The notes below the pieces were generated by a model. The model saw nothing but the letters and a program-made list of their open reading frames with translations, had not been told where the DNA came from and made no database searches. Shown piece after piece: positions 53,967 to 64,000 of a stretch of DNA of 64,000 bases. The stretch is from Natranaerobius thermophilus JW/NM-WN-LF (GTDB lineage Bacteria > Bacillota > Natranaerobiia > Natranaerobiales > Natranaerobiaceae): the NCBI RefSeq assembly GCF_000020005.1, contig NC_010718.1:2004001-2068000 (forward strand). The letters run 5' to 3'. Every line of letters starts with the position of its first letter. The stretch's first letter is position 1. Position numbers and translations under genes: made by a program.

Positions 53967-54043
53967 TGGCGCGCCCGGCAGGACTCGAACCTGCAACCTC
54001 CAGATTCGAAGTCTGTTACTCTATCCGGTTGAGCTACGGGCGC
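53967..54043 (-). tRNA. tRNA-Arg (TCG)
   Basis: 77 nt, acceptor GCGCCCG, anticodon loop CTTCGAA, discriminator G and encoded CCA. Confidence 0.96.
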
Positions 54044-54052
54044 ATGAATAAA

Positions 54053-54130
54053 TGGGGTGAGTGATGGGATTTGAACCCACGGCCCCCAGAGCCACAATCT
54101 GGTGCTCTTACCTAGCTGAGCTACACTCAC
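54053..54130 (-). tRNA. tRNA-His (GTG)
   Basis: 78 nt, anticodon loop TTGTGGC. The base before the 5' end is G, giving the G(-1):C73 pair needed by histidyl-tRNA synthetase. CCA is encoded. Confidence 0.96.
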
Positions 54131-54138
54131 CATGATAA

Positions 54139-54214
<76 letters not shown>

Positions 54215-54228
54215 AATTAATTAACAAG

Positions 54229-54302
54229 TGGAGCGGGTGATGGGAATCGAACCCACGCGACTGGCTTGGAAGGCCAGGGCTCTACCACTGAGCTACACCC
54301 GC
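54229..54302 (-). tRNA. tRNA-Gly (TCC)
   Basis: 74 nt, acceptor GCGGGTG, anticodon loop CTTCCAA, discriminator T and encoded CCA. Confidence 0.96.
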
Positions 54303-54315
54303 TTATTTTGTTAAA

Positions 54316-54392
54316 TGGTCGGGGCGGCAGGATTTGAACCTGCGACCCCTTGGTCCCAAACCAAGTGCGCTGCCAAACTGCGCTACGCCCCG
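54316..54392 (-). tRNA. tRNA-Pro (TGG)
   Basis: 77 nt, acceptor CGGGGCG, anticodon loop TTTGGGA, discriminator A and encoded CCA. It is the first gene of the operon. Confidence 0.96.
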
Positions 54393-54405
54393 TCGCGCAA
54401 GAATT

Positions 54406-54434
54406 AGTATAACGCATAATATAACGTTTGTCAA
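54406..54434 (-). promoter_or_regulatory. tRNA operon promoter
   Basis: On the minus strand TTGACA (54434-54429) and TATACT (54411-54406) are 17 bases apart, 13 bases before the first tRNA. It is among the best sigma-A promoters in the window. Confidence 0.88.
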
Positions 54435-54442
54435 ATGTTAAT

Positions 54443-54979
54443 TTAAGATTTTTTATAAAGAATTTCTGCTGAATTCAATGTGTTGCCACTAACTTCTATT
54501 ATACCATAGGATGGCTCTTTTACGCCACCTCTTGGATAATTAAAACTACCCGGATTAAAAAATAATACACCATTTTCTTGAATATTTACAGGTATATGTG
54601 TATGACCGAATATTACTATATCAGATCTTTCTTCTTCTGCCAAGTAGTTTAATTGTAAAAGTCCATTCTTCACTCCTTCATAATGGCCATGCAAGAGTAA
54701 TATCCGCAGTCCTGATACTTCAATAAGCAATTTTGAAGGACTTTTGTATCCATCACAGTTACCCACAACCCCGTAATAACCAAGGGGGTTCTCCTTTAGA
54801 AGATCGGGATTATGCTCTATTTCATATTTTATATTATGTAAGTCTGTTAAAAAATCGCCTGCATGAAGGATATAATGAACAGGTTCGTTTTTAGATATAC
54901 TTTGAACGACATCATCAATCTTCCCATGGGTATCACTGATTACTGCTAGTTTTATCTTCTCTTTTTCTGGTAATATCAT
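54443..54979 (-). CDS. metallophosphoesterase, YfcE/MJ0936 type
   Basis: This is a small calcineurin-like phosphodiesterase of 178 residues. Metal-binding motifs are AVISDTHGK, LHAGDF, VVGNCDG, LLHGH and FGHTHIPV. FNPGSFNYPRGG, typical of the YfcE group, follows. Proteins of this group hydrolyse model phosphodiesters; the true substrate is unclear. The gene follows the XTP pyrophosphatase gene, an arrangement common in Firmicutes (rph, rdgB, yfcE). ATG 54979 follows GGAGGGA. Confidence 0.93.
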   Translation of the reverse strand: MILPEKEKIKLAVISDTHGKIDDVVQSISKNEPVHYILHAGDFLTDLHNIKYEIEHNPDLLKENPLGYYGVVGNCDGYKSPSKLLIEVSGLRILLLHGHYEGVKNGLLQLNYLAEEERSDIVIFGHTHIPVNIQENGVLFFNPGSFNYPRGGVKEPSYGIIEVSGNTLNSAEILYKKS

Positions 54980-54981
54980 TA

Positions 54982-55587
54982 TTATCCCTCCATTAGACTC
55001 ATAACATCTTGGAAGTTGGCAACTAATTTTTCCAGGGCTTTACCACGATGACTGATAGAACTTTTTTCTTCCTGGTAGAGTTCGCCAAATGTTTTTCCCA
55101 TATCAGGATGATAAAATAAAGGATCATATCCAAAACCTCTATCTCCTTTAGGTTCCCTTAAAATATATCCTTCACAGGTGCCAGTGAATGTTACAGGTGG
55201 AGTATCAGGGTAAGCAATGGCAATTACACATTTAAAACGAGCAGTACGTTGTTTATAAGGTATATCCTTTAATGATCGCAATAATTTGTTATTATTGTCT
55301 TGATCACAGGCGTTTTCACCTGCATAACGTGCAGAGTAGACTCCTGGCGCACCATCTAAAGCGTCTACTTCTAGACCTGAATCATCGGCTAGGGATAAGT
55401 ATCCTGTTGAATCAGCTACATTTTGCGCCTTAATAATGGCATTTTCCGCAAAGGTTTTTCCAGTTTCTTGGGCTTCTTTTATATTATTAAAATCCGACAT
55501 AGAATAAATTTCAACTGGCTGTTTGCTAAGTAATGCTTTTAATTCGTTAAGTTTTCCCTGATTACCTGAGGCGAGTACAAGTTTCAT
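54982..55587 (-). CDS. rdgB: XTP/dITP pyrophosphatase
   Basis: RdgB removes non-canonical purine triphosphates (XTP, ITP, dITP) from the nucleotide pool. The 201-residue protein shows the signature [16 protein letters not shown], the metal-binding [20 protein letters not shown] in parts, and [15 protein letters not shown] choose ATG 55587, since AAAGGATGA sits before it; ATG 55596 overlaps that site. It begins 5 bases after the RNase PH stop codon. Confidence 0.95.
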
Positions 55588-55592
55588 GATAA

Positions 55593-56333
55593 TCATCCTT
55601 TCTTGGCAGGAGGTGGATAGATTTCTGATAAAGCTTGACTTTGTACTTCCATTAAAGCATGCATTCCTTTCTCAGCATAGCTTAACATTTTTTCCATTTC
55701 ATTTTTGCTAAAAGGATGATTTTCACCAGTACCTTGAATTTCTACAAATTCACCTTTATCAGTCCCTGCCACATTCATATCTGTATCAGCTTGAAAGTCT
55801 TCCTTACCATCTAAATCCAGCATTATTTCATCATTTACTATTCCTACACTAATAGCAGCTAAATAACCTTCTACAGGTAACTCGGACAATTCTTTCTCTT
55901 CCACTAGTTTGTTTAATGCTAACACCATAGACACAAAAGCACCTGTTATAGAAGCTGTTCTAGTACCTCCATCGGCTTGAATTACATCACAGTCTAACCA
56001 TATTGTCCGTTCTCCTAGTTTTTTGAGATTTACCATAGATCTCAAAGACCTGCCAATTAATCTTTGAATTTCCTGGGTACGACCTCCCAGCTTTCCTTTT
56101 GCCGCTTCTCTAATATTTCTCGACTCTGTGGCACGAGGTAACATAGAGTATTCGGCTGTCACCCAACCTTTTCCTTCACCTTTTAAAAAGGATGGAACCT
56201 TGGACTCAATAGTCGCACTACAGATGACCTTGGTATCTCCCACTGTTATTAATACCGATCCCTCTGGATGTTTGACAAAATCAGTTTCAATTTTAACAGG
56301 ACGAATTTCGTCAACTTTTCTGTTTTCTCTCAT
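55593..56333 (-). CDS. rph: ribonuclease PH
   Basis: RNase PH is a phosphate-dependent exonuclease that trims tRNA 3' ends. The 246-residue protein has [14 protein letters not shown], the phosphate-binding arginines in [37 protein letters not shown] and [12 protein letters not shown]. Both catalytic Asp positions look intact. It leads a three-gene unit with rdgB and the phosphodiesterase, just upstream of the tRNA operon on the same strand. ATG 56333 follows AAAGGAG. Confidence 0.96.
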
Positions 56334-56376
56334 AGTGTCACTCCTTTGTTTTTTATGTCCTTAAAGTCCTTAAAAA

Positions 56377-57279
56377 CTATTCCAAATTAAAAGACAGTAA
56401 TGATCCCCTTGCCTCCCCTACTCTGCCGATTAACATAAATCGCTGTAAAATAGGATCTTTTACAAATTTAGAATTCAATTGAAAACTTTCAATCTCTCCT
56501 GTACTTCTTACATGGACACGTGGCCCTGTACAATAAATATCATGATAATCACCTATTTGCAACCGGTTATTTTCTGGTTCGGGGTGGACGGGAAGATCTT
56601 CCTTTATCCATTCATTCACCATTTCATCAACTATTTGTAAATCAATGTCTGGATAAGAATCAAATTCCATTACGAATCCATGTTGAACTTCGCTATAATT
56701 GTTTGGAAGAGACCAGTTTTGGACTTTTAGGGCTAAGCTTACTAACTCTTCTGCAGTATGAGCCATTTTCCTGTAGATAAGTGAACGCTCAACGTGTTTT
56801 GATAAATCTTTGGGATCCGGGCCAAATAATTGAGGCCTCGTCACAATCACTTCTTCCCCGACACCGATTAATACCTGAGCATTAATATTTAAATAGGGAT
56901 ATATCTTTTCAAAGTGTTCTATAATAACCCTTCGTTCATGAGAAATAGCTGTAATAATAGCTTTTGTAATTTCTTCAGCTGTATAAAAAGCTAATTCAAA
57001 TTGGGCATCAATATGATAGGTATTATGTTTAAAATACCCATTGTAATAAGCTTCTAATATAGGAAGTGGCCTAATATTGACACCATTATCGTCGTTAGTT
57101 AAAGTGAACTCCTTTAACATACCTTCAATCAACACGGATTTACCAGCCCCTGGTCCTCCTACAAAACCTATTAATTTATCATCAATACTAATATAGTGTC
57201 GGAGTATATGATCACCAAGTTCCAACAAGCGCCACCTTCCTCTAGGTGCAAAATAGACCGCTTGACTGAGATGGGCCAA
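56377..57279 (-). CDS. P-loop protein with AlaRS 'second additional domain'-like C-terminus
   Basis: The 300-residue protein has a P-loop near residue 40 (GFVGGPGAGKSVLIEG). Further on comes EEVIVTRPQLFGPDPKDLSKHVERS (quoted in part as FGPDPKDLSKH). A C-terminal segment CTGPRVHVRSTGEIESF resembles the CGGTHVxxTGxIG zinc site of the AlaRS editing domain, with altered spacing between Cys and His. Clostridia have such proteins annotated as alanyl-tRNA-synthetase-related. A role in tRNA proofreading would suit its place next to rph, but is not shown. TTG 57279 follows AGGAGGA at 7 bases. Confidence 0.65.
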   Translation of the reverse strand: MAHLSQAVYFAPRGRWRLLELGDHILRHYISIDDKLIGFVGGPGAGKSVLIEGMLKEFTLTNDDNGVNIRPLPILEAYYNGYFKHNTYHIDAQFELAFYTAEEITKAIITAISHERRVIIEHFEKIYPYLNINAQVLIGVGEEVIVTRPQLFGPDPKDLSKHVERSLIYRKMAHTAEELVSLALKVQNWSLPNNYSEVQHGFVMEFDSYPDIDLQIVDEMVNEWIKEDLPVHPEPENNRLQIGDYHDIYCTGPRVHVRSTGEIESFQLNSKFVKDPILQRFMLIGRVGEARGSLLSFNLE

Positions 57280-57335
57280 AAACTATTCCTCCTTAGAATA
57301 CAGTCTTCATTAAAATAACAAATTCGTTAAATTTT

Positions 57336-57405
57336 GGTTGTATTTAAGTTGAATGTTGATGACTGTAAAATTTTACTATTATTAACAACTAAGTATAACA
57401 GCGCC
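57336..57405 (+). repeat. dispersed palindromic repeat, copy 5 (full length)
   Basis: The left half GGTTGTATTTAAGTTGAATG, then TTGATGACTGTAAAATTTT, is joined to the right half TTAACAACTAAGTATAACAG followed by CGCC. It is about 70 bases and lies between the P-loop gene and the ClC gene. The outer ends (GGTTGTA... and ...AACAGCGCC) are loosely complementary. Confidence 0.75.
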
Positions 57406-57485
57406 TAAAATTTTAAAAATGACTTGCTAATTTGAAATCATAATATTTACAACCCATTATAATTCAAATACCGAAAAAAATAAAA

Positions 57486-58775
57486 TTAACTAACCTCTCG
57501 GTCTAGAAATTTAAAGTGCTCACAAACCTGTCTAAAGGATTGATCATTAGTAACTTCATAAAATTGTTGATTATTACCTATAATATATCCAATAACAGCT
57601 CCTATAACTGCAGATACACCCATTTTTAAACCTAACATTTCAATAATCATTACAACAGAAGCAATTGGGACACCTGCTATTGCAGACAAAGAAGCAGTCA
57701 TACCCACTACAACCAGACTGTAATGCAAAGCAGAATCGGCAAACTCAAAGCTCAACAAGCTGGAAACCAAACTGCCTGCCAAAGCACCTATATATAAAGC
57801 TGGAATCACTTTTCCTGCACTACCTCCGCTTCCAATTGTAAAAGCTGTAGCAAAAATTTTACCTAATAATAATAACAAAATGATATCAATGGACATACTG
57901 GTCAAAATGAATTTTTGCACATATTCGGTGCCTATACCTAAAACTTCTTGACCAGCAATGAGAGCTGTCATCCCTGTAAAAATCCCTCCAACAGCAGGGC
58001 GTAAAGGTTGAGGTATACTAGAGTTTTCAAAAAATTCCCTGCTCCCGTAAAAAACTATCTTAAAAAAGATACTGATTATCCCTGTCAGTACTGCTGTAAC
58101 AACTATAAAAGGAATATATTGCACCTCCATATTATATGAAGGGATGGTAAATAATGGATCAGTGTCTAGAACTAATGAATAAGTCACATAACCTATAGCA
58201 CTAGATAAAATTGCTGGGAATAATTCATTATAATGTAAAGCTGATTTATAAAGGAGTTCAACAACAAAAATACCACCTCCAAGAGGCGATCGAAATACTG
58301 CTCCCACAGCACCAGCTGCGCCGCATATAGTGCCAATCCTCATATCTTCATTACTAAAATATTTGGCAATAGGTTTGATACGCCTCAATAAAAAATTGCT
58401 CATGCTCCCTCCAATAAGCACCATTGGTCCTTCTATCCCTCCGCTGGCCCCAAAACCTAAATTCAAGCTAGAAGAAAATAACTTAAATAGAGAAGTCCTC
58501 CCTTTAATTGCACCATTTAAACGGTTGACACTATTAATGAAAACATTCGTTCCAAAACTCTTGGTAGATATATCAATCTTATGGAAGACAAATCCTAAGA
58601 AAATTCCTGCAATAACAGGGCCTAACAGGTAATGTATATATCTTTCTCTAATAAAATAGAATAAGTCTATTGCTGTATTTAATAGTAAAGCTGACAAACC
58701 TCCTAAAATTCCTACTAAGACAGCTACAATAAACCATTTTACAATATAACCTGTTGAAGTTTGCAATGGATTCAT
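57486..58775 (-). CDS. ClC-type chloride channel/antiporter
   Basis: The 429-residue membrane protein has about ten hydrophobic segments of the ClC family. The gating Glu is kept in GASGGIEGPMVLIGG (G-x-E-G-P, with Ile where Arg or Lys is usual). AAGAVGAVFRSPLGGGIFVVELL and GSGGSAGKVIPALYIGALAG match the selectivity-filter helices. It has no CBS domain. Whether it is a channel or a Cl-/H+ exchanger is unclear: the usual proton Glu position was not aligned. ATG 58775 follows GGTGGTGAT. Confidence 0.9.
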   Translation of the reverse strand: MNPLQTSTGYIVKWFIVAVLVGILGGLSALLLNTAIDLFYFIRERYIHYLLGPVIAGIFLGFVFHKIDISTKSFGTNVFINSVNRLNGAIKGRTSLFKLFSSSLNLGFGASGGIEGPMVLIGGSMSNFLLRRIKPIAKYFSNEDMRIGTICGAAGAVGAVFRSPLGGGIFVVELLYKSALHYNELFPAILSSAIGYVTYSLVLDTDPLFTIPSYNMEVQYIPFIVVTAVLTGIISIFFKIVFYGSREFFENSSIPQPLRPAVGGIFTGMTALIAGQEVLGIGTEYVQKFILTSMSIDIILLLLLGKIFATAFTIGSGGSAGKVIPALYIGALAGSLVSSLLSFEFADSALHYSLVVVGMTASLSAIAGVPIASVVMIIEMLGLKMGVSAVIGAVIGYIIGNNQQFYEVTNDQSFRQVCEHFKFLDREVS

Positions 58776-58920
58776 CTATATCACCACCATATCAACTGGA
58801 ATACTTATTCGATGTGTCAATCTAACAATTTGAAATTGATATTTTGAGTTTACCAGCATGCAACTATAACAGAGCCAGCTTTTTTAATAATAATTAATAC
58901 TGGCCATTGACATAAAATAA

Positions 58921-58943
58921 CCCCGGAACTCTTACTTCCGGGG
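58921..58943 (-). terminator. terminator of the GerM-like gene
   Basis: CCCCGGAA pairs with TTCCGGGG around a 7-base loop and TTATTTTATG follows on the minus strand, about 120 bases after the stop at 59061. The rest of 58776-59060 shows nothing else. Confidence 0.8.
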
Positions 58944-59060
58944 ATTTAAGAAAAATTTTGAAACTAGCTAGGAAAATTATATATTATTAATAATAAAAAC
59001 GCAATAGGGTGAAGACTGGGTTTAACTATTTTAATAACAGTGTGAAATTTAGTGTTAATT

Positions 59061-60068
59061 TTAATATCTAAAATTAACTTCCTCTAAGTTCATCACTCTT
59101 TCGTCAATATCTATAGGTGTTCCATCTATAGATATCTCCATACTATCGATATAATCAAAGTCTGTTAATGTGAATTTCAACTGCTTTAGTGCAAGTTCTT
59201 GATGTTCTGGGTCATCTGCTAAGTTAGAAACATCCATTTGCATAGTATTGCCTTCTATCTTGACGTCATTAATATCAAGATCTGTTGAAACATAAGAGAT
59301 AAGTCCACTATCTGGGTCTGCACCTTTCATTAATTCATAAATGGCATTACCCTCTAACTCTTCAGTATCTGGGATATACCTAGTAACAGGAACTACATAC
59401 TCTCCATCTTGTGATAAGAAATATAAATTTACTCCCGTCTCATTCTCTGCACTTTCTGCTTCAGCAGTTATTTCTACATTCAATCCTTCTCGTGTTAAAG
59501 GTCCTGAAACATCAGTCCCTCCTGGTAAACTTTCAATAAATTCACCTTCAACCATGATTTCTACCTCATCAATAGTTTCAAATTCAGACAAAGTATAAAC
59601 AATAGAATTTTTAATTTCTTGTTCCGATTCTGGTTCCATGTCCAAAAATTCTTCGGTAAAGTTCACCCGGGCTCTACCATCGTCAATAGCCATTCCTTTG
59701 ACTTTGGTTCCATTAGGTAAAGTAGGAGTTAAGTTTGTATCCATCCAAAACTCTTCATTTGCCGGTGTTTGAGACATTTTGTTCAAGGTTTTAGTAGCTA
59801 TTCCTTCAGTCCATTCAATGGGTTTAACCACTGGTACTAAGTTATCGTTGTTATCAAGCAAATAAAATACTGTTTCTCTCTTTTCATCCTCATCGTAATC
59901 TCGTATTTCTGTGGGTTCATCTTCTTTTGGTTCCAATTCTTCTTGTTCTTCTTTAGTGGTTTCATCCGGATCTGGCCCAAAAATAAAATCTAGAAAAAAA
60001 CATCCGCTTAATAACAGTGCCATGGAACTAATCACTATTATTAAAACTATCAATTTTACCTTCCCCAT
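59061..60068 (-). CDS. gerM: GerMN-domain lipoprotein (GerM-like)
   Basis: The 335-residue protein is a lipoprotein: MGKVKLIVLIIVISSMALLL, then SGC at residue 23 as lipobox. A charged linker follows, then two tandem GerMN domains (about 65-190 and 205-330), each with the pattern VFYLLDNN.../LYFLSQDG..., a helix, and VEIMVEGE/MEISIDGT. GerM in Bacillus helps build the ring that links mother cell and forespore, and is needed for germination. This supports a spore-forming ancestry. ATG 60068 follows GGGGGAGTG. Confidence 0.85.
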   Translation of the reverse strand: MGKVKLIVLIIVISSMALLLSGCFFLDFIFGPDPDETTKEEQEELEPKEDEPTEIRDYDEDEKRETVFYLLDNNDNLVPVVKPIEWTEGIATKTLNKMSQTPANEEFWMDTNLTPTLPNGTKVKGMAIDDGRARVNFTEEFLDMEPESEQEIKNSIVYTLSEFETIDEVEIMVEGEFIESLPGGTDVSGPLTREGLNVEITAEAESAENETGVNLYFLSQDGEYVVPVTRYIPDTEELEGNAIYELMKGADPDSGLISYVSTDLDINDVKIEGNTMQMDVSNLADDPEHQELALKQLKFTLTDFDYIDSMEISIDGTPIDIDERVMNLEEVNFRY

Positions 60069-60143
60069 TAAACACTCCCCCTTTCTTAAAAACTCCCTTA
60101 CTAAATTATTTATACAAAAACTACTAAAAAAATGATTAAAAAA

Positions 60144-60175
60144 ACCTGACTTTTCGATTAATCAAAAAGTCAGGT
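60144..60175 (-). terminator. terminator of the glutamate-mutase-like gene
   Basis: ACCTGACTTTT pairs with its complement around a 10-base loop and TTTTTTT flanks it on the minus strand, 25 bases after the stop. Confidence 0.88.
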
Positions 60176-60199
60176 AAATAAAAAGGAGAGTCAAGTAAA

Positions 60200-61609
60200 T
60201 TAAATTAATTCACCTTTCCCAGCTGCATAAATGTCATCAATAACCATTTGAAATGTAGGTTCTCTTTGTTCTTTTTGCCCTCGTTTCTTTAAACACTCTT
60301 CATGAAAAGTTTTAATATCATTGGACAAGGGGAGTTTACCGTAATCAAAATATCTAACACAACCATCTATCCCTCTTATTGGTAACACTTGTCCGTGATT
60401 TTCTATCATTGAAGAAAAGGGAACATCTAAAATTCCATCTTTAAACGCCTCTAAAACTGCCAGGGAAATCTCTTTATTTTGACCGGATTTCTCTAGAACA
60501 GTATCAACAATATCTTTCACAGCTATCTTTAGTCGTTGAGATTCTTGTGTATGAAGCTCCCCATTTTGATACCTTCCTATCTCAAAACTTTTTTTCGCAG
60601 TCTGTATCCCGCTTAAATAAGAGCTATTATCAATCTGGCCTGTTCCCTTATCAGGGCTTGTTGAGATAATCTTATCGGCCTGCCCTATGCCACCACATAT
60701 TCCTGCTGATGATATAATAGCATACCCCTCAGCACTGCTTTTGGGAAAGCCTCCGGACCAGGTAGCCAAGGCTGAGCTGACTCCAATATCATTAACATTA
60801 TCATGCCCCATCTTTTTAAGATATTCTGAAAACAACTGTTTTAGCAAGTTAATACCCGAAATATCTTGAGAAATACGCCCAACCTGATTGTAAGTGAGAG
60901 TGATAGATTTCACTCCATTTTCCACTGCAATTAAACCATCTAATATTATTAATGCTATTTGTAAACACGGAGGAATGAGATTACCCGATAAGGGTAACGA
61001 AATTTCTTTGTTTATTATAACTCCCTTGGTCGCATAAAAAGCTATTAATTTATCTATATATTCCCAATGAACTAACCCTTGTTCTAGGGAGACCCTTTCA
61101 AAACTATAAGCAGAATTAGTTATGGCTCCACCTACTATATCTGATATTCCAGAGGCAAATGCTTTTTCTGCCAAAATTCTTTGATCATTTTTCACCGATC
61201 GAATTTGAATAGGAAAAGCTGAGTTGTTAACTATCTGACGAAGATTTTCTATAGAAACATGTTGAAGATTTCTTTTGGTTTCATCAGCAGAATCGATTGA
61301 TAAAGTAAGCAATATATCCGTATCTTCACCGAAGTTTTCAAATAGCTTATTATAGAATTCAGCATGCTCGTCTAAAGTGGTATAGCTATAATCTCCTTGT
61401 AATATTGTCCATTTCGATGATTTTTTATTTAATTTATAAGAGGAATTTTTATTATATCCTTGATTCTGGTGAAAGTTAATAATCTCTTGTATATTTTCTT
61501 GAATTTCTAAAAAACCACTTTTACCTTTTAAAAAATCTCGTCTAAATTCATAAAAATTATCAATGTAACTCAACTTATCACCGCCATTATTAATATTCGT
61601 ATCTAACAT
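60200..61609 (-). CDS. divergent glutamate mutase epsilon-subunit homologue
   Basis: This 469-residue protein aligns by eye with the coenzyme-B12-dependent glutamate mutase E chain. Shared segments are DKLIAFYATKGVIINKE, PLSGNLIPP, ISQDISGINLL, WSGGFP, and the ending PIRGIDGCVRYFDYGKLPLS, FQMVIDDIYAAGKGELI. However, the substrate-binding positions I recall from Clostridium GlmE are changed (PRAG is QGDY; the Glu and first Tyr of NEGGGISYN are Ile and Thr). No glmS (cobalamin-binding) or mutL gene adjoins it. It may act on another substrate or have lost activity. ATG 61609 is given; TTG 61573 after GGTGAT is also plausible. Confidence 0.8.
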   Translation of the reverse strand: MLDTNINNGGDKLSYIDNFYEFRRDFLKGKSGFLEIQENIQEIINFHQNQGYNKNSSYKLNKKSSKWTILQGDYSYTTLDEHAEFYNKLFENFGEDTDILLTLSIDSADETKRNLQHVSIENLRQIVNNSAFPIQIRSVKNDQRILAEKAFASGISDIVGGAITNSAYSFERVSLEQGLVHWEYIDKLIAFYATKGVIINKEISLPLSGNLIPPCLQIALIILDGLIAVENGVKSITLTYNQVGRISQDISGINLLKQLFSEYLKKMGHDNVNDIGVSSALATWSGGFPKSSAEGYAIISSAGICGGIGQADKIISTSPDKGTGQIDNSSYLSGIQTAKKSFEIGRYQNGELHTQESQRLKIAVKDIVDTVLEKSGQNKEISLAVLEAFKDGILDVPFSSMIENHGQVLPIRGIDGCVRYFDYGKLPLSNDIKTFHEECLKKRGQKEQREPTFQMVIDDIYAAGKGELI

Positions 61610-61665
61610 ATCAGTCAGAACTAAATATGGTCCAAATAAACAAAATGTTCAACTCTTTTTAAAAA

Positions 61666-61719
61666 GCTATATTAAAGAGATCAGCTTTTACAGTATCAAC
61701 AACTAAATATAGCAGCGCC
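61666..61719 (-). repeat. dispersed palindromic repeat, copy 6
   Basis: GCTATATTAAAGAGATCAGC, then TTTTACAGTATCAACAACTAA and ATATAGCAGCGCC. The right half matches copies 3 and 5; the left half is diverged. The ends GCTATAT and ATATAGC are complementary. It lies between the MarR gene and the mutase-like gene. Confidence 0.7.
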
Positions 61720-61725
61720 TATTAA

Positions 61726-61753
61726 AAAAATCCCATGACAACATGGGATTTTT
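61726..61753. terminator. terminator of the MarR gene
   Basis: AAAAATCCCATG pairs perfectly with CATGGGATTTTT around ACAA, followed by T residues on the minus strand, 23 bases after the MarR stop. Confidence 0.9.
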
Positions 61754-61776
61754 AGCTTAGTAAATTATCACATTAT

Positions 61777-62241
61777 TTAGTGATTCATTAATTCATTCAA
61801 CTGGGTCAGAGCAAATATTATTCTTTCCCTTTCTGACTTGGAGAGATCTTTTAAGATATTCTTTAAGTATTCTTGTCTTGCAGCTATAACTTCACTGATT
61901 AATTTATGACCCTTTTCAAGCACTTTAATACGGACTATTCTGCGATCTTTATCATCTCTATATCGCTTCACAAGTTCATTTTTTTCCATCCTATCAACTA
62001 AATCTGTCACTGTACTACAGGCTAAAAATAATCGATCACTTAATTCACCAATTGTAAGGTCCCCTTCTTTTGTGAGGGATTGAAGGGCTATAAATTGGGG
62101 AGGAGTTATATTAAAATCTTGAAGTATTTCTCGGCCTCTGCGCTTTATAACAGAATTCACATTTCTAATTAAAAGTTCAATGTCCTGTATGAATTCATCG
62201 TAATCCTTGTCATGAATTGATTGACTGTAATTATTCTTCAT
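61777..62241 (-). CDS. MarR-family transcriptional regulator
   Basis: The 154-residue winged-helix regulator has a DNA-binding core (LTIGELSDRLFLACSTVTDLV), the wing DKDRRIVRIKVL and terminal dimerisation helices. It is bounded by its own terminator. Targets could be itself, the DUF441 gene upstream or the TTT transporter genes; no palindrome is clear in 62242-62355. ATG 62241 follows TAGGAGGAT. Confidence 0.92.
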   Translation of the reverse strand: MKNNYSQSIHDKDYDEFIQDIELLIRNVNSVIKRRGREILQDFNITPPQFIALQSLTKEGDLTIGELSDRLFLACSTVTDLVDRMEKNELVKRYRDDKDRRIVRIKVLEKGHKLISEVIAARQEYLKNILKDLSKSERERIIFALTQLNELMNH

Positions 62242-62355
62242 GGGAGTAATCCTCCTAATATCATTTTACTTAAAATAAGTGTACCGTTAACAAGTTTCAC
62301 TGTCAAGGATTACAAATTTTAATTGTAGGTTATTTTCAAAATTGATTATAAATTT

Positions 62356-62805
62356 TCAGAGATTCAAAGATTTGATAAGGACTGCAGCTAACCCTGCAGC
62401 TACTAAAGGACCAGCTGGAACCCCTTTCAAGAAAGATGCCCCTATAATTGAACCAACTATTAAACCTACCATAACCTCCGGGCGCGATCTCAATAATTCC
62501 ACCCCATGACCAGTCAAATAAGATGCCACAATGCCAGAAAAAACAGCAATTAACCCTGCCGGTGATTTTAAAGTTGATAATAAATCCCTAGGCATAATAT
62601 CTCCTGCAGCAAAAGGGGTGAGTACACTTAATGTTAATAGTAAGATACCTAGTTCAATTCCCCTTTCCGTTAAAAAAGGGAATACATTACTTAATGGGGA
62701 AAATTTCATAACAAAGAGCAATGCTCCAGCCGTTGCCACCAAATCATTCTTCCCAATTAAAGCTATAAGAAATATAAATAATAACACAACTATTTCATGA
62801 AACAA
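62356..62805 (-). CDS. DUF441 (UPF0756) membrane protein
   Basis: The 149-residue protein has four or five membrane segments and the family marks IALIGKNDLVATAGALLF, FPFLTERGIELGI and FLKGVPAGPLVAAGLAA. The function of this family, widespread in Firmicutes and proteobacteria, is unknown. ATG 62805 follows GGAGGGGGTGAG, a strong ribosome site. The gene is about 120 bases from the TctC-like gene. Confidence 0.88.
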   Translation of the reverse strand: MFHEIVVLLFIFLIALIGKNDLVATAGALLFVMKFSPLSNVFPFLTERGIELGILLLTLSVLTPFAAGDIMPRDLLSTLKSPAGLIAVFSGIVASYLTGHGVELLRSRPEVMVGLIVGSIIGASFLKGVPAGPLVAAGLAAVLIKSLNL

Positions 62806-62924
62806 AAACTCACCCCCTCCTGTTTAAATTTTATGGAGGGGGTCGTAAATTAATGTCAAATATCACATCTTATGATTCTTGCATTAAATTACTTTTCAAC
62901 AGACTCTCAGGGGAAAACCAAAAG

Positions 62925-63893
62925 TTATTCCAAGTGACCAAATTTGTCAAGTAAGTCAATTAAAATCTCTTCTCGTTCTTCAAATTCCTCTTTTACTTCG
63001 TCTCGTTTTAAAAACAGGGTGTCCGCACCTGCTTCATCCATTTCTTCCTGATAATCGGGATTTTCAGCTACATTATAAAAAGCTTCTGTCAATACTTCTA
63101 TGATTTCTGGAGGAGTACCTTCAGGGGCTGCAATCCCTCTATCAGTACTCATTATAGCTGTGTCATATCCCAACTCTTTAAATGTAGGAACATCTGGAGC
63201 AAAAGGATGACGTTCTTCAGTAGCCACAGCTAAAATCCGAACTTCGTCACCTTGACGATACATATCACTTAAATTACCTGAAACCACATCTATATGACCG
63301 CCCAGTAGATTAGCCAGAGCATCGGCTGCTCCGGGATATGGCATTTGATTAAATTCTACCCCTGTTTCATCTTTCATTTGCAAAATCAAAAAGTGATGCC
63401 CAATATATAGGCCAGCTTTTCCTATAGAAATTTCACCAGGATTTTCTTGGGCATCTTCTATCAAATCGTCCAAAGTTTCATAAGGGCTATCTTCTCTCAC
63501 AGCAAACACTGTTGGATCAAATCCCCAATTCATGATGGGTTCAAAAGTTTCTTTGGTGTATTCAGTATCATGAACTTGAGGTTGAGCTAAAATATGGGGG
63601 AGATTGTATGCAGCCAAAGTGTAACCGTCCGGGTCGGCATCAGCAAACTCATTCCATCCCACCTGGCCACCTGAACCTTCAATGTTTTGAACAACTACTG
63701 GCTGGCCTAATTCATCTTCGGCGTAATCCGCTAAAATTCTAGCTTGGGTGTCTGTTGCCGCTCCTGCTGAATAAGCAACGATTAATTCAATGGGTCTTTC
63801 CGGATAATTTGCGTGATCATCTTCTGAACATCCTGCAAAAATCACGAGACTTCCGATCAACACCCCGATCGTAATAATTTTGAGTTTTTCCAT
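62925..63893 (-). CDS. tctC: tripartite tricarboxylate transporter substrate-binding lipoprotein (TctC type)
   Basis: The 322-residue protein is a lipoprotein with lipobox FAGC near residue 22. The mature part follows the TctC plan: YPERPIELIVAYSAGAATDTQ, VVVQNIEGSGGQVGW, the ligand-loop region MPYPGAADALANLLGGHID and RGIAAPEGTPPEIIEVL. It would capture a carboxylate outside the cell for the TctAB membrane subunits. The C-terminus is very acidic. It follows the TctB gene end by 20 bases. ATG 63893 follows AGGAGG. Confidence 0.93.
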   Translation of the reverse strand: MEKLKIITIGVLIGSLVIFAGCSEDDHANYPERPIELIVAYSAGAATDTQARILADYAEDELGQPVVVQNIEGSGGQVGWNEFADADPDGYTLAAYNLPHILAQPQVHDTEYTKETFEPIMNWGFDPTVFAVREDSPYETLDDLIEDAQENPGEISIGKAGLYIGHHFLILQMKDETGVEFNQMPYPGAADALANLLGGHIDVVSGNLSDMYRQGDEVRILAVATEERHPFAPDVPTFKELGYDTAIMSTDRGIAAPEGTPPEIIEVLTEAFYNVAENPDYQEEMDEAGADTLFLKRDEVKEEFEEREEILIDLLDKFGHLE

Positions 63894-63913
63894 TAATTAT
63901 CAGCCTCCTAATT

Positions 63914-64000
63914 TTATATAAATAATCCTCTAGGTAATGGTACCCTGAGGAAAAGACTAAACAGTAAATACATAGCGACTGTCAAACTGGTACCGAGGGC
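63914..64000 (-). CDS. tctB: TctB-type small membrane subunit (C-terminal fragment, runs off window)
   Basis: The last 28 codons are visible: ALGTSLTVAMYLLFSLFL, then RVPLPRGLFI. The hydrophobic helix ending in LPRG-LF is typical of the C-terminus of TctB, the small membrane subunit. Its position just before the binding-protein gene agrees. Confidence 0.75.
   Translation of the reverse strand, partial: ALGTSLTVAMYLLFSLFLRVPLPRGLFI

Follow-up and report, generated by a model that had tools for sequence, protein, structure and literature searches.

How the epsilon subunit of glutamate mutase (GlmE) can be kept by an organism without the B12-binding subunit (GlmS) that belongs to it is the question raised by a GlmE-like gene of Natranaerobius thermophilus. 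The gene lies in the window analyzed here, a 64,000-nucleotide stretch of the genome, and has neither GlmS nor the chaperone MutL (GlmL) adjoining it. A preliminary description, made from the sequence of the window, proposed that it might encode either a B12 enzyme for a different substrate or a repurposed barrel.

The gene is an intact open reading frame of 469 amino acids plus a stop codon with an ATG start. Its product is a member of Pfam family PF06368 (Met_asp_mut_E; 308.9 bits against a gathering cut-off of 26.6, E 5.9e-92, residues 120-469), and its best solved relatives are the epsilon chains of Clostridium cochlearium glutamate mutase (phmmer against 1cb7_B and 6h9e_B, E 1.2e-65, with strong alignment confined to residues 120-469). 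With TIGR01503, the GlmE equivalog model, the score is 306.3 bits, below the equivalog cut-off of 390.1. The AlphaFold2 model, computed with 31 aligned sequences (mean pLDDT 82.9, pTM 0.89), reaches a pLDDT of 90 or above over most of the C-terminal domain and drops below 50 in residues 106-116. When this predicted model was searched with Foldseek, 1cb7_B ranked first (TMq 0.87), and VIA-align placed 449 residues on 6h9e_B with an rmsd of 2.2 (Z 45.9), the next families being the aminomutases (Z 24). The predicted protein falls within the TIM-barrel fold of GlmE, and by this model both its barrel and its C-terminal region would be those of GlmE. A genome-wide search found no second GlmE in N. 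thermophilus, and the possibility that the gene duplicates a standard glmS-mutL-glmE set located elsewhere was rejected, as this GlmE is the only one and GlmS is absent.

According to PMC9545868, the arginine claw of GlmE consists of R66, R100 and R149, E171 contacts the glycyl amine, Y177 is the proposed contact to the acrylate intermediate, and the adenosyl group forms hydrogen bonds with backbone atoms of G68 and N123. These positions were followed in 86 aligned GlmE rows drawn from a sample of 398 Bacillota genomes (G labels, G000 being N. thermophilus; f22, f34, f39 and f64 are family labels), where the 69 canonical rows are those of GlmS-bearing genomes minus the divergent G090 copy and G328, and the GlmS-bearing G140 gave no sequence. 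Also followed were H150, Y181, K326 and E330, putative active-site residues that are supported as such here by their invariance alone. At C. cochlearium positions 66, 100, 149, 150, 171, 177, 181, 326 and 330, all 69 canonical rows read RRRHEYYKE and the GlmE-like protein reads DERSVNSTK, with R149 the only survivor of the nine; alignment of the first 119 residues is weak, so that the changes read at R66 and R100 are only as sure as the alignment there, while R149, E171, Y177, Y181, K326 and E330 belong to the stretch of strong alignment. The claw positions are thus occupied by D, E and R, and E171 and Y177 are replaced by V and N. In addition, a 22-residue in-frame deletion in the alignment has removed C. 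cochlearium positions 107-128, and therefore the N123 region, so the adenosine-binding cavity represented by that region is not preserved. The preliminary description had called the gene an orphan GlmE homologue with a clear GlmE fold signature and with substrate residues changed relative to Clostridium GlmE, and on all these points it was right: the Pfam score (309 bits) and the superposition on the crystal structure agree with the assignment, there is a single GlmE with no neighboring GlmS, and alignment of the substrate residues did not find them conserved.

Table 1. Features of the N. thermophilus window that bear on the GlmE-like gene (positions in the window).
Feature	Position	Strand	Remarks
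GlmE-like gene	60200..61609	-	Sole GlmE-type protein found in the N. thermophilus genome; Pfam, TIGR01503, phmmer, predicted fold
Conserved C-terminal block	60203..60463	-	Residues 383-469, equivalent to C. cochlearium 393-479; 24/32 near-invariant columns kept
D73 codon	61391..61393	-	Position of claw residue R66; role from PMC9545868
E110 codon	61280..61282	-	Position of claw residue R100; role from same source
Codons 116-117	61259..61264	-	Junction of the in-frame loss of C. cochlearium 107-128
R137 codon	61199..61201	-	Position of claw residue R149; sole kept of nine; role from same source
V159 codon	61133..61135	-	Position of E171; role from same source
N165 codon	61115..61117	-	Position of Y177; role from same source
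Terminator-like hairpin then T6	60144..60175	-	Downstream of GlmE-like gene; 1 found, shuffles mean 0.8, weak alone
Germane-domain lipoprotein	59061..60068	-	Conserved neighbor at the locus
TsaE-like P-loop NTPase fused to AlaX-like domain	56377..57279	-	Glutamate-mutase-cluster protein retained; weak Pfam matches
rph (RNase PH)	55593..56333	-	Conserved right-hand anchor of the ancestral cluster
MarR-family regulator	61777..62241	-	Upstream neighbor; link to GlmE-like gene not shown

The absence of GlmS and MutL beside the gene, noted in the preliminary description, extends in the case of GlmS to the whole genome. No protein above the GlmS equivalog cut-off is encoded by N. thermophilus, by G001 or G002, or by the six f22 genomes, the best match in N. 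thermophilus (51.9 bits; cut-off 135.8) lies inside another protein, and a genome-wide search found no standard glmS-mutL-glmE set. Seven proteins of N. thermophilus exceed the cut-off of the B12-binding model PF02310; two lack the DxHxxG motif and five have it, namely a MetH-like protein, a methylmalonyl-CoA mutase small subunit that adjoins a methylmalonyl-CoA-mutase-like gene, a KamE-like protein in a lysine-type cluster, an OraE-like protein and a 616-aa fused mutase (MetH, KamE and OraE are labels given by inspection of sequence and surroundings, and not in every case by a family search). Each of the five belongs to another enzyme, and the idea of a separate B12 subunit for the GlmE-like protein was rejected. 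Two MutL/GlmL homologues are encoded elsewhere in the genome, one beside the OraE-like protein of 746 aa and the other beside the 616-aa fused mutase. The latter, a barrel-plus-B12 protein with a GlmL-like chaperone, is found with PrpF-, PrpB-, LeuC- and HIBADH-like genes (L098:4916-14456; C2 about 2278900-2288500) in what we take to resemble a 2-methyleneglutarate mutase or nicotinate fermentation cluster. No cobalamin riboswitch was found in 54000-64000, where the Rfam matches are tRNAs only. Methylaspartate ammonia-lyase, which was found in 1/15 GlmS-less genomes compared with 4/4 of the GlmS-bearing controls searched, has no match in the N. thermophilus genome, and because both it and GlmS are absent the methylaspartate route is not encoded in this organism.

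The origin of the GlmE-like gene is suggested by its surroundings. The order in G049 is Germane-murI-glmS-mutL-glmE-hgdD-hgdAct-MBL-ATPase-rph-rdgB-yfcE-tig-clpP-clpX (gene names partly assigned by reading the sequences), and the canonical order murI–glmS–mutL–glmE–…–ATPase–rph is present at L104. The window has TctC-?-MarR-GlmE-like-Germane-ClC-ATPase-rph-rdgB-yfcE, and G002, the only other genome with the gene in the order to which N. thermophilus belongs, has TctC-?-?-murI-GlmE-like-Germane-short ATPase-rph, with an ATPase frame of only 165 aa. In G001, the nearest relative and a member of the same family as N. thermophilus, GlmE is gone, murI stands at that place, and the ATPase is present only as fragments. 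Given the gene order shared with G049 and G002, the GlmE-like gene is the ancestral glmE, which stayed where it was when glmS and mutL disappeared, and has been neither transferred nor duplicated.

Several other features of these loci were recorded. The G001 fragments, of the TsaE/AlaX-like NTPase type, contain an in-frame stop (G001:C12:2031-2501, L107). At L104:10909-13379, L136, L141 and L152, HGD-D-like, BcrAD/BadFG-like and often MBL-fold genes come after glmE in a tight cluster, an arrangement that occurs in GlmS-less genomes too. MurI above the cut-off is absent from N. thermophilus, both in 61609-61777 and genome-wide, whereas in G001 and G002 it is found at this locus. A D-amino-acid-aminotransferase-like protein (260.6 bits, below the cut-off of 277.45) is encoded beside an Asp/Glu-racemase-like match (C2:653321-654704). 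The GlmE-like protein as a substitute for glutamate racemase was considered and rejected, since this pair can explain the supply of D-glutamate, G002 has murI together with the GlmE-like gene, and the chemistry is far.

GlmE without GlmS is not confined to N. thermophilus. In the Bacillota sample, 86/398 genomes match the GlmE-like protein and 71/398 have GlmS over the cut-off, all within the 86, leaving 15 GlmE-bearing genomes from six families (G000, G002, six of f22, three of f34, three of f39 and G081 of f64); because several are drafts (completeness 84 to 100%, G075 having 84%), single absences could be gaps, and the G290 copy is cut by a contig end. The loci that lack glmS and mutL are the window, L089, L090, L096, L102, L103, L105, L110, L114, L115, L136, L141, L152 and L168. 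Erosion of the active site is graded among these proteins. All three claw arginines are kept in 7/15 (f34, f39 and G081), E171 and K326 are kept in most proteins outside G000, and Y177, among the rows having the site, is kept only in G081, which instead has lost E171; the f22 proteins are more eroded than that of G000. The GlmE-like protein of N. thermophilus therefore shares with its GlmS-less counterparts the locus, or a derived form of it, and the lack of a GlmS over the cut-off, but not the claw, E171 and K326 that many of them keep. Relative to C. cochlearium GlmE (MutE; PF06368/TIGR01503; 1cb7, 6h9e), it has in common the fold over nearly the whole length, the C-terminal block and the ancestral locus, and differs in having no GlmS and no MutL of its own, in 8/9 active-site positions, in the loss of 107-128 and in scoring below the TIGR01503 cut-off.

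A single origin of all GlmS-less GlmEs was not adopted. A quick tree gave one clade (support 81), and a careful tree split them into four lineages, f34 with f39 (93/99), G000 with G002 (100/100), f22 and G081; one clade is not rejected by the AU test, with p 0.237 on the careful tree, which took 14/15 GlmS-less rows and left out G290, and p 0.33 without long rows, in a run that took 8/15. In the open-licence literature no paper was found joining Natranaerobius thermophilus with glutamate mutase or glutamate mutase with pseudoenzyme, and among the titles listed none concerned GlmS-less GlmE.

Whether the protein is under selection can be judged from where it has changed. Near-invariant columns (n=167) were defined on 68 canonical rows, and 90/167 are changed or missing in the GlmE-like protein, which keeps 22/69 up to position 195, 31/66 in 196-392 and 24/32 from 393 (C-terminal versus N-terminal retention, Fisher p 8e-5). 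In a second deep lineage, f22, the bias is even stronger: the five rows whose N-terminal part is complete keep 12-17/69 N-terminal and 25-28/32 C-terminal columns. The f34, f39 and G081 rows have a weak bias or none (p 0.01 to 0.79). The divergent GlmS-bearing paralogues of G090 and G328, which keep 84 and 82 of 163 near-invariant columns, stand about as far from canonical GlmE as the N. thermophilus protein does, but they keep the claw, have GlmS and show no such bias (p 0.39 and 0.52), the pattern to be expected of a mutase for another substrate. These paralogues (L099:10295-11764 and L093:9143-10708) adjoin GlmS and carry C150, P171 and W177 together with the claw, and are possibly AdoCbl mutases for a different substrate. 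Differences between the GlmE-like genes of N. thermophilus and G002 by codon position are 0.48, 0.34 and 0.61, with synonymous sites near saturation, and lineage-only changes number 77 in G000 against 42 in G002 (chi2 10.3), an asymmetry not seen in rph, rdgB or yfcE.

With the same locus and the same predicted fold, an intact frame and a conserved C-terminal domain, and with the active-site residues and GlmS gone, the GlmE-like protein is probably, in our judgment, a GlmE that has lasted longer than its B12 subunit: a B12-independent barrel, dead as a mutase, in which selection still preserves the C-terminal and central regions. The ancestral epsilon subunit stayed at its original place as GlmS and its chaperone MutL/GlmL were lost and, to go by the missing substrate and cofactor residues, would no longer take part in AdoCbl radical chemistry. 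Any remaining task would fall to the C-terminal domain and central barrel rather than the old glutamate pocket, and might be oligomer formation or the docking of a partner or small ligand. Its main rival, which we consider unlikely although it deserves weight, is that the gene no longer serves a purpose and is being lost: all that is left of a vanished glutamate mutase operon, it would simply not yet have acquired a stop codon. The loss of GlmE and the fragmented ATPase in G001 of the same family, the short ATPase frame of G002 and the faster evolution of the protein in G000 can be cited for such a relic, although a new role would explain them as readily as slow loss would. Against it, the 469-codon frame is intact, although simulated neutral change of 0.05 substitutions per site left the frame stop-free in only 0.7% of 300 runs (P 0.007), conservation is concentrated in the C-terminal block, the C-terminal domain is confidently predicted to fold, and GlmE persists without GlmS in five other families.

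Less probable still is a cobalamin-independent enzyme, in which the old barrel would have acquired a new active site for some other small molecule and would work without B12. In the predicted model the barrel fold is preserved, and the equivalents of E214, Q260, D261 and W293 are kept in 15/15 GlmS-less proteins, but these polar core residues are invariant in true mutases as well and may be structural, and no new conserved pocket motif emerged, as just two columns are conserved in most of the eight mildly diverged GlmS-less proteins yet rare in canonical ones. That the protein is a cobalamin mutase for another substrate which borrows a B12 subunit (e.g., the methylmalonyl-CoA mutase small subunit or KamE) is very improbable, since, despite several B12-binding proteins, two GlmL-type chaperones and one retained claw arginine, all five DxHxxG proteins belong to recognizable other enzymes, the deletion removes the stretch that contains the adenosyl contact N123, and no cobalamin riboswitch was found in 54000-64000. 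Of the two proposals in the preliminary description, the B12 enzyme for a different substrate is accordingly not upheld, and nothing found here shows that the protein binds B12 or is a B12 enzyme. The repurposed barrel fits: the frame is unbroken, with constraint on the C-terminal domain and erosion of the catalytic half.

Such a B12-independent barrel may have a partner. The NTPase encoded 3 kb away (Table 1) has no family model with a clear score; its predicted structure (pLDDT 87.0) gave 1htw, 1v7o and 1wnu as the top Foldseek rows (each E 2e-5 to 7e-5), and AlaX-like domains are of the tRNA-editing type. Among Bacillota genomes with this NTPase, 71/74 have GlmE (G310 being a marginal match and G001 fragments), and 71/86 of the GlmE-bearing genomes have the NTPase. 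Glutamate mutase genes are its neighbors in several other phyla too, on contigs that bear the labels Bacteroidia, Treponema, Synergistaceae and Leptolinea. It is present in 11/15 GlmS-less genomes and missing in 4/15, and is not specific to them. By its genomic association with GlmE alone, it is a candidate partner of the GlmE-like protein. A wider proposal, offered tentatively and with clearly less confidence than the reading of the N. thermophilus protein itself, is that the epsilon subunit has a second, B12-independent role in its C-terminal domain that was repeatedly kept after mutase loss, such that GlmS-less GlmEs form an unrecognized class of functional pseudo-mutases, perhaps acting with the TsaE/AlaX-like NTPase. 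For annotation, naming these proteins methylaspartate mutase E chain on the strength of homology would ascribe to 15/86 GlmE-bearing genomes of the sample, about one in six, a B12 pathway that lacks its B12 subunit. If the retained role is true, there would be a hidden second function in the subunit of a textbook radical enzyme, and an uncharacterized NTPase that travels with it.
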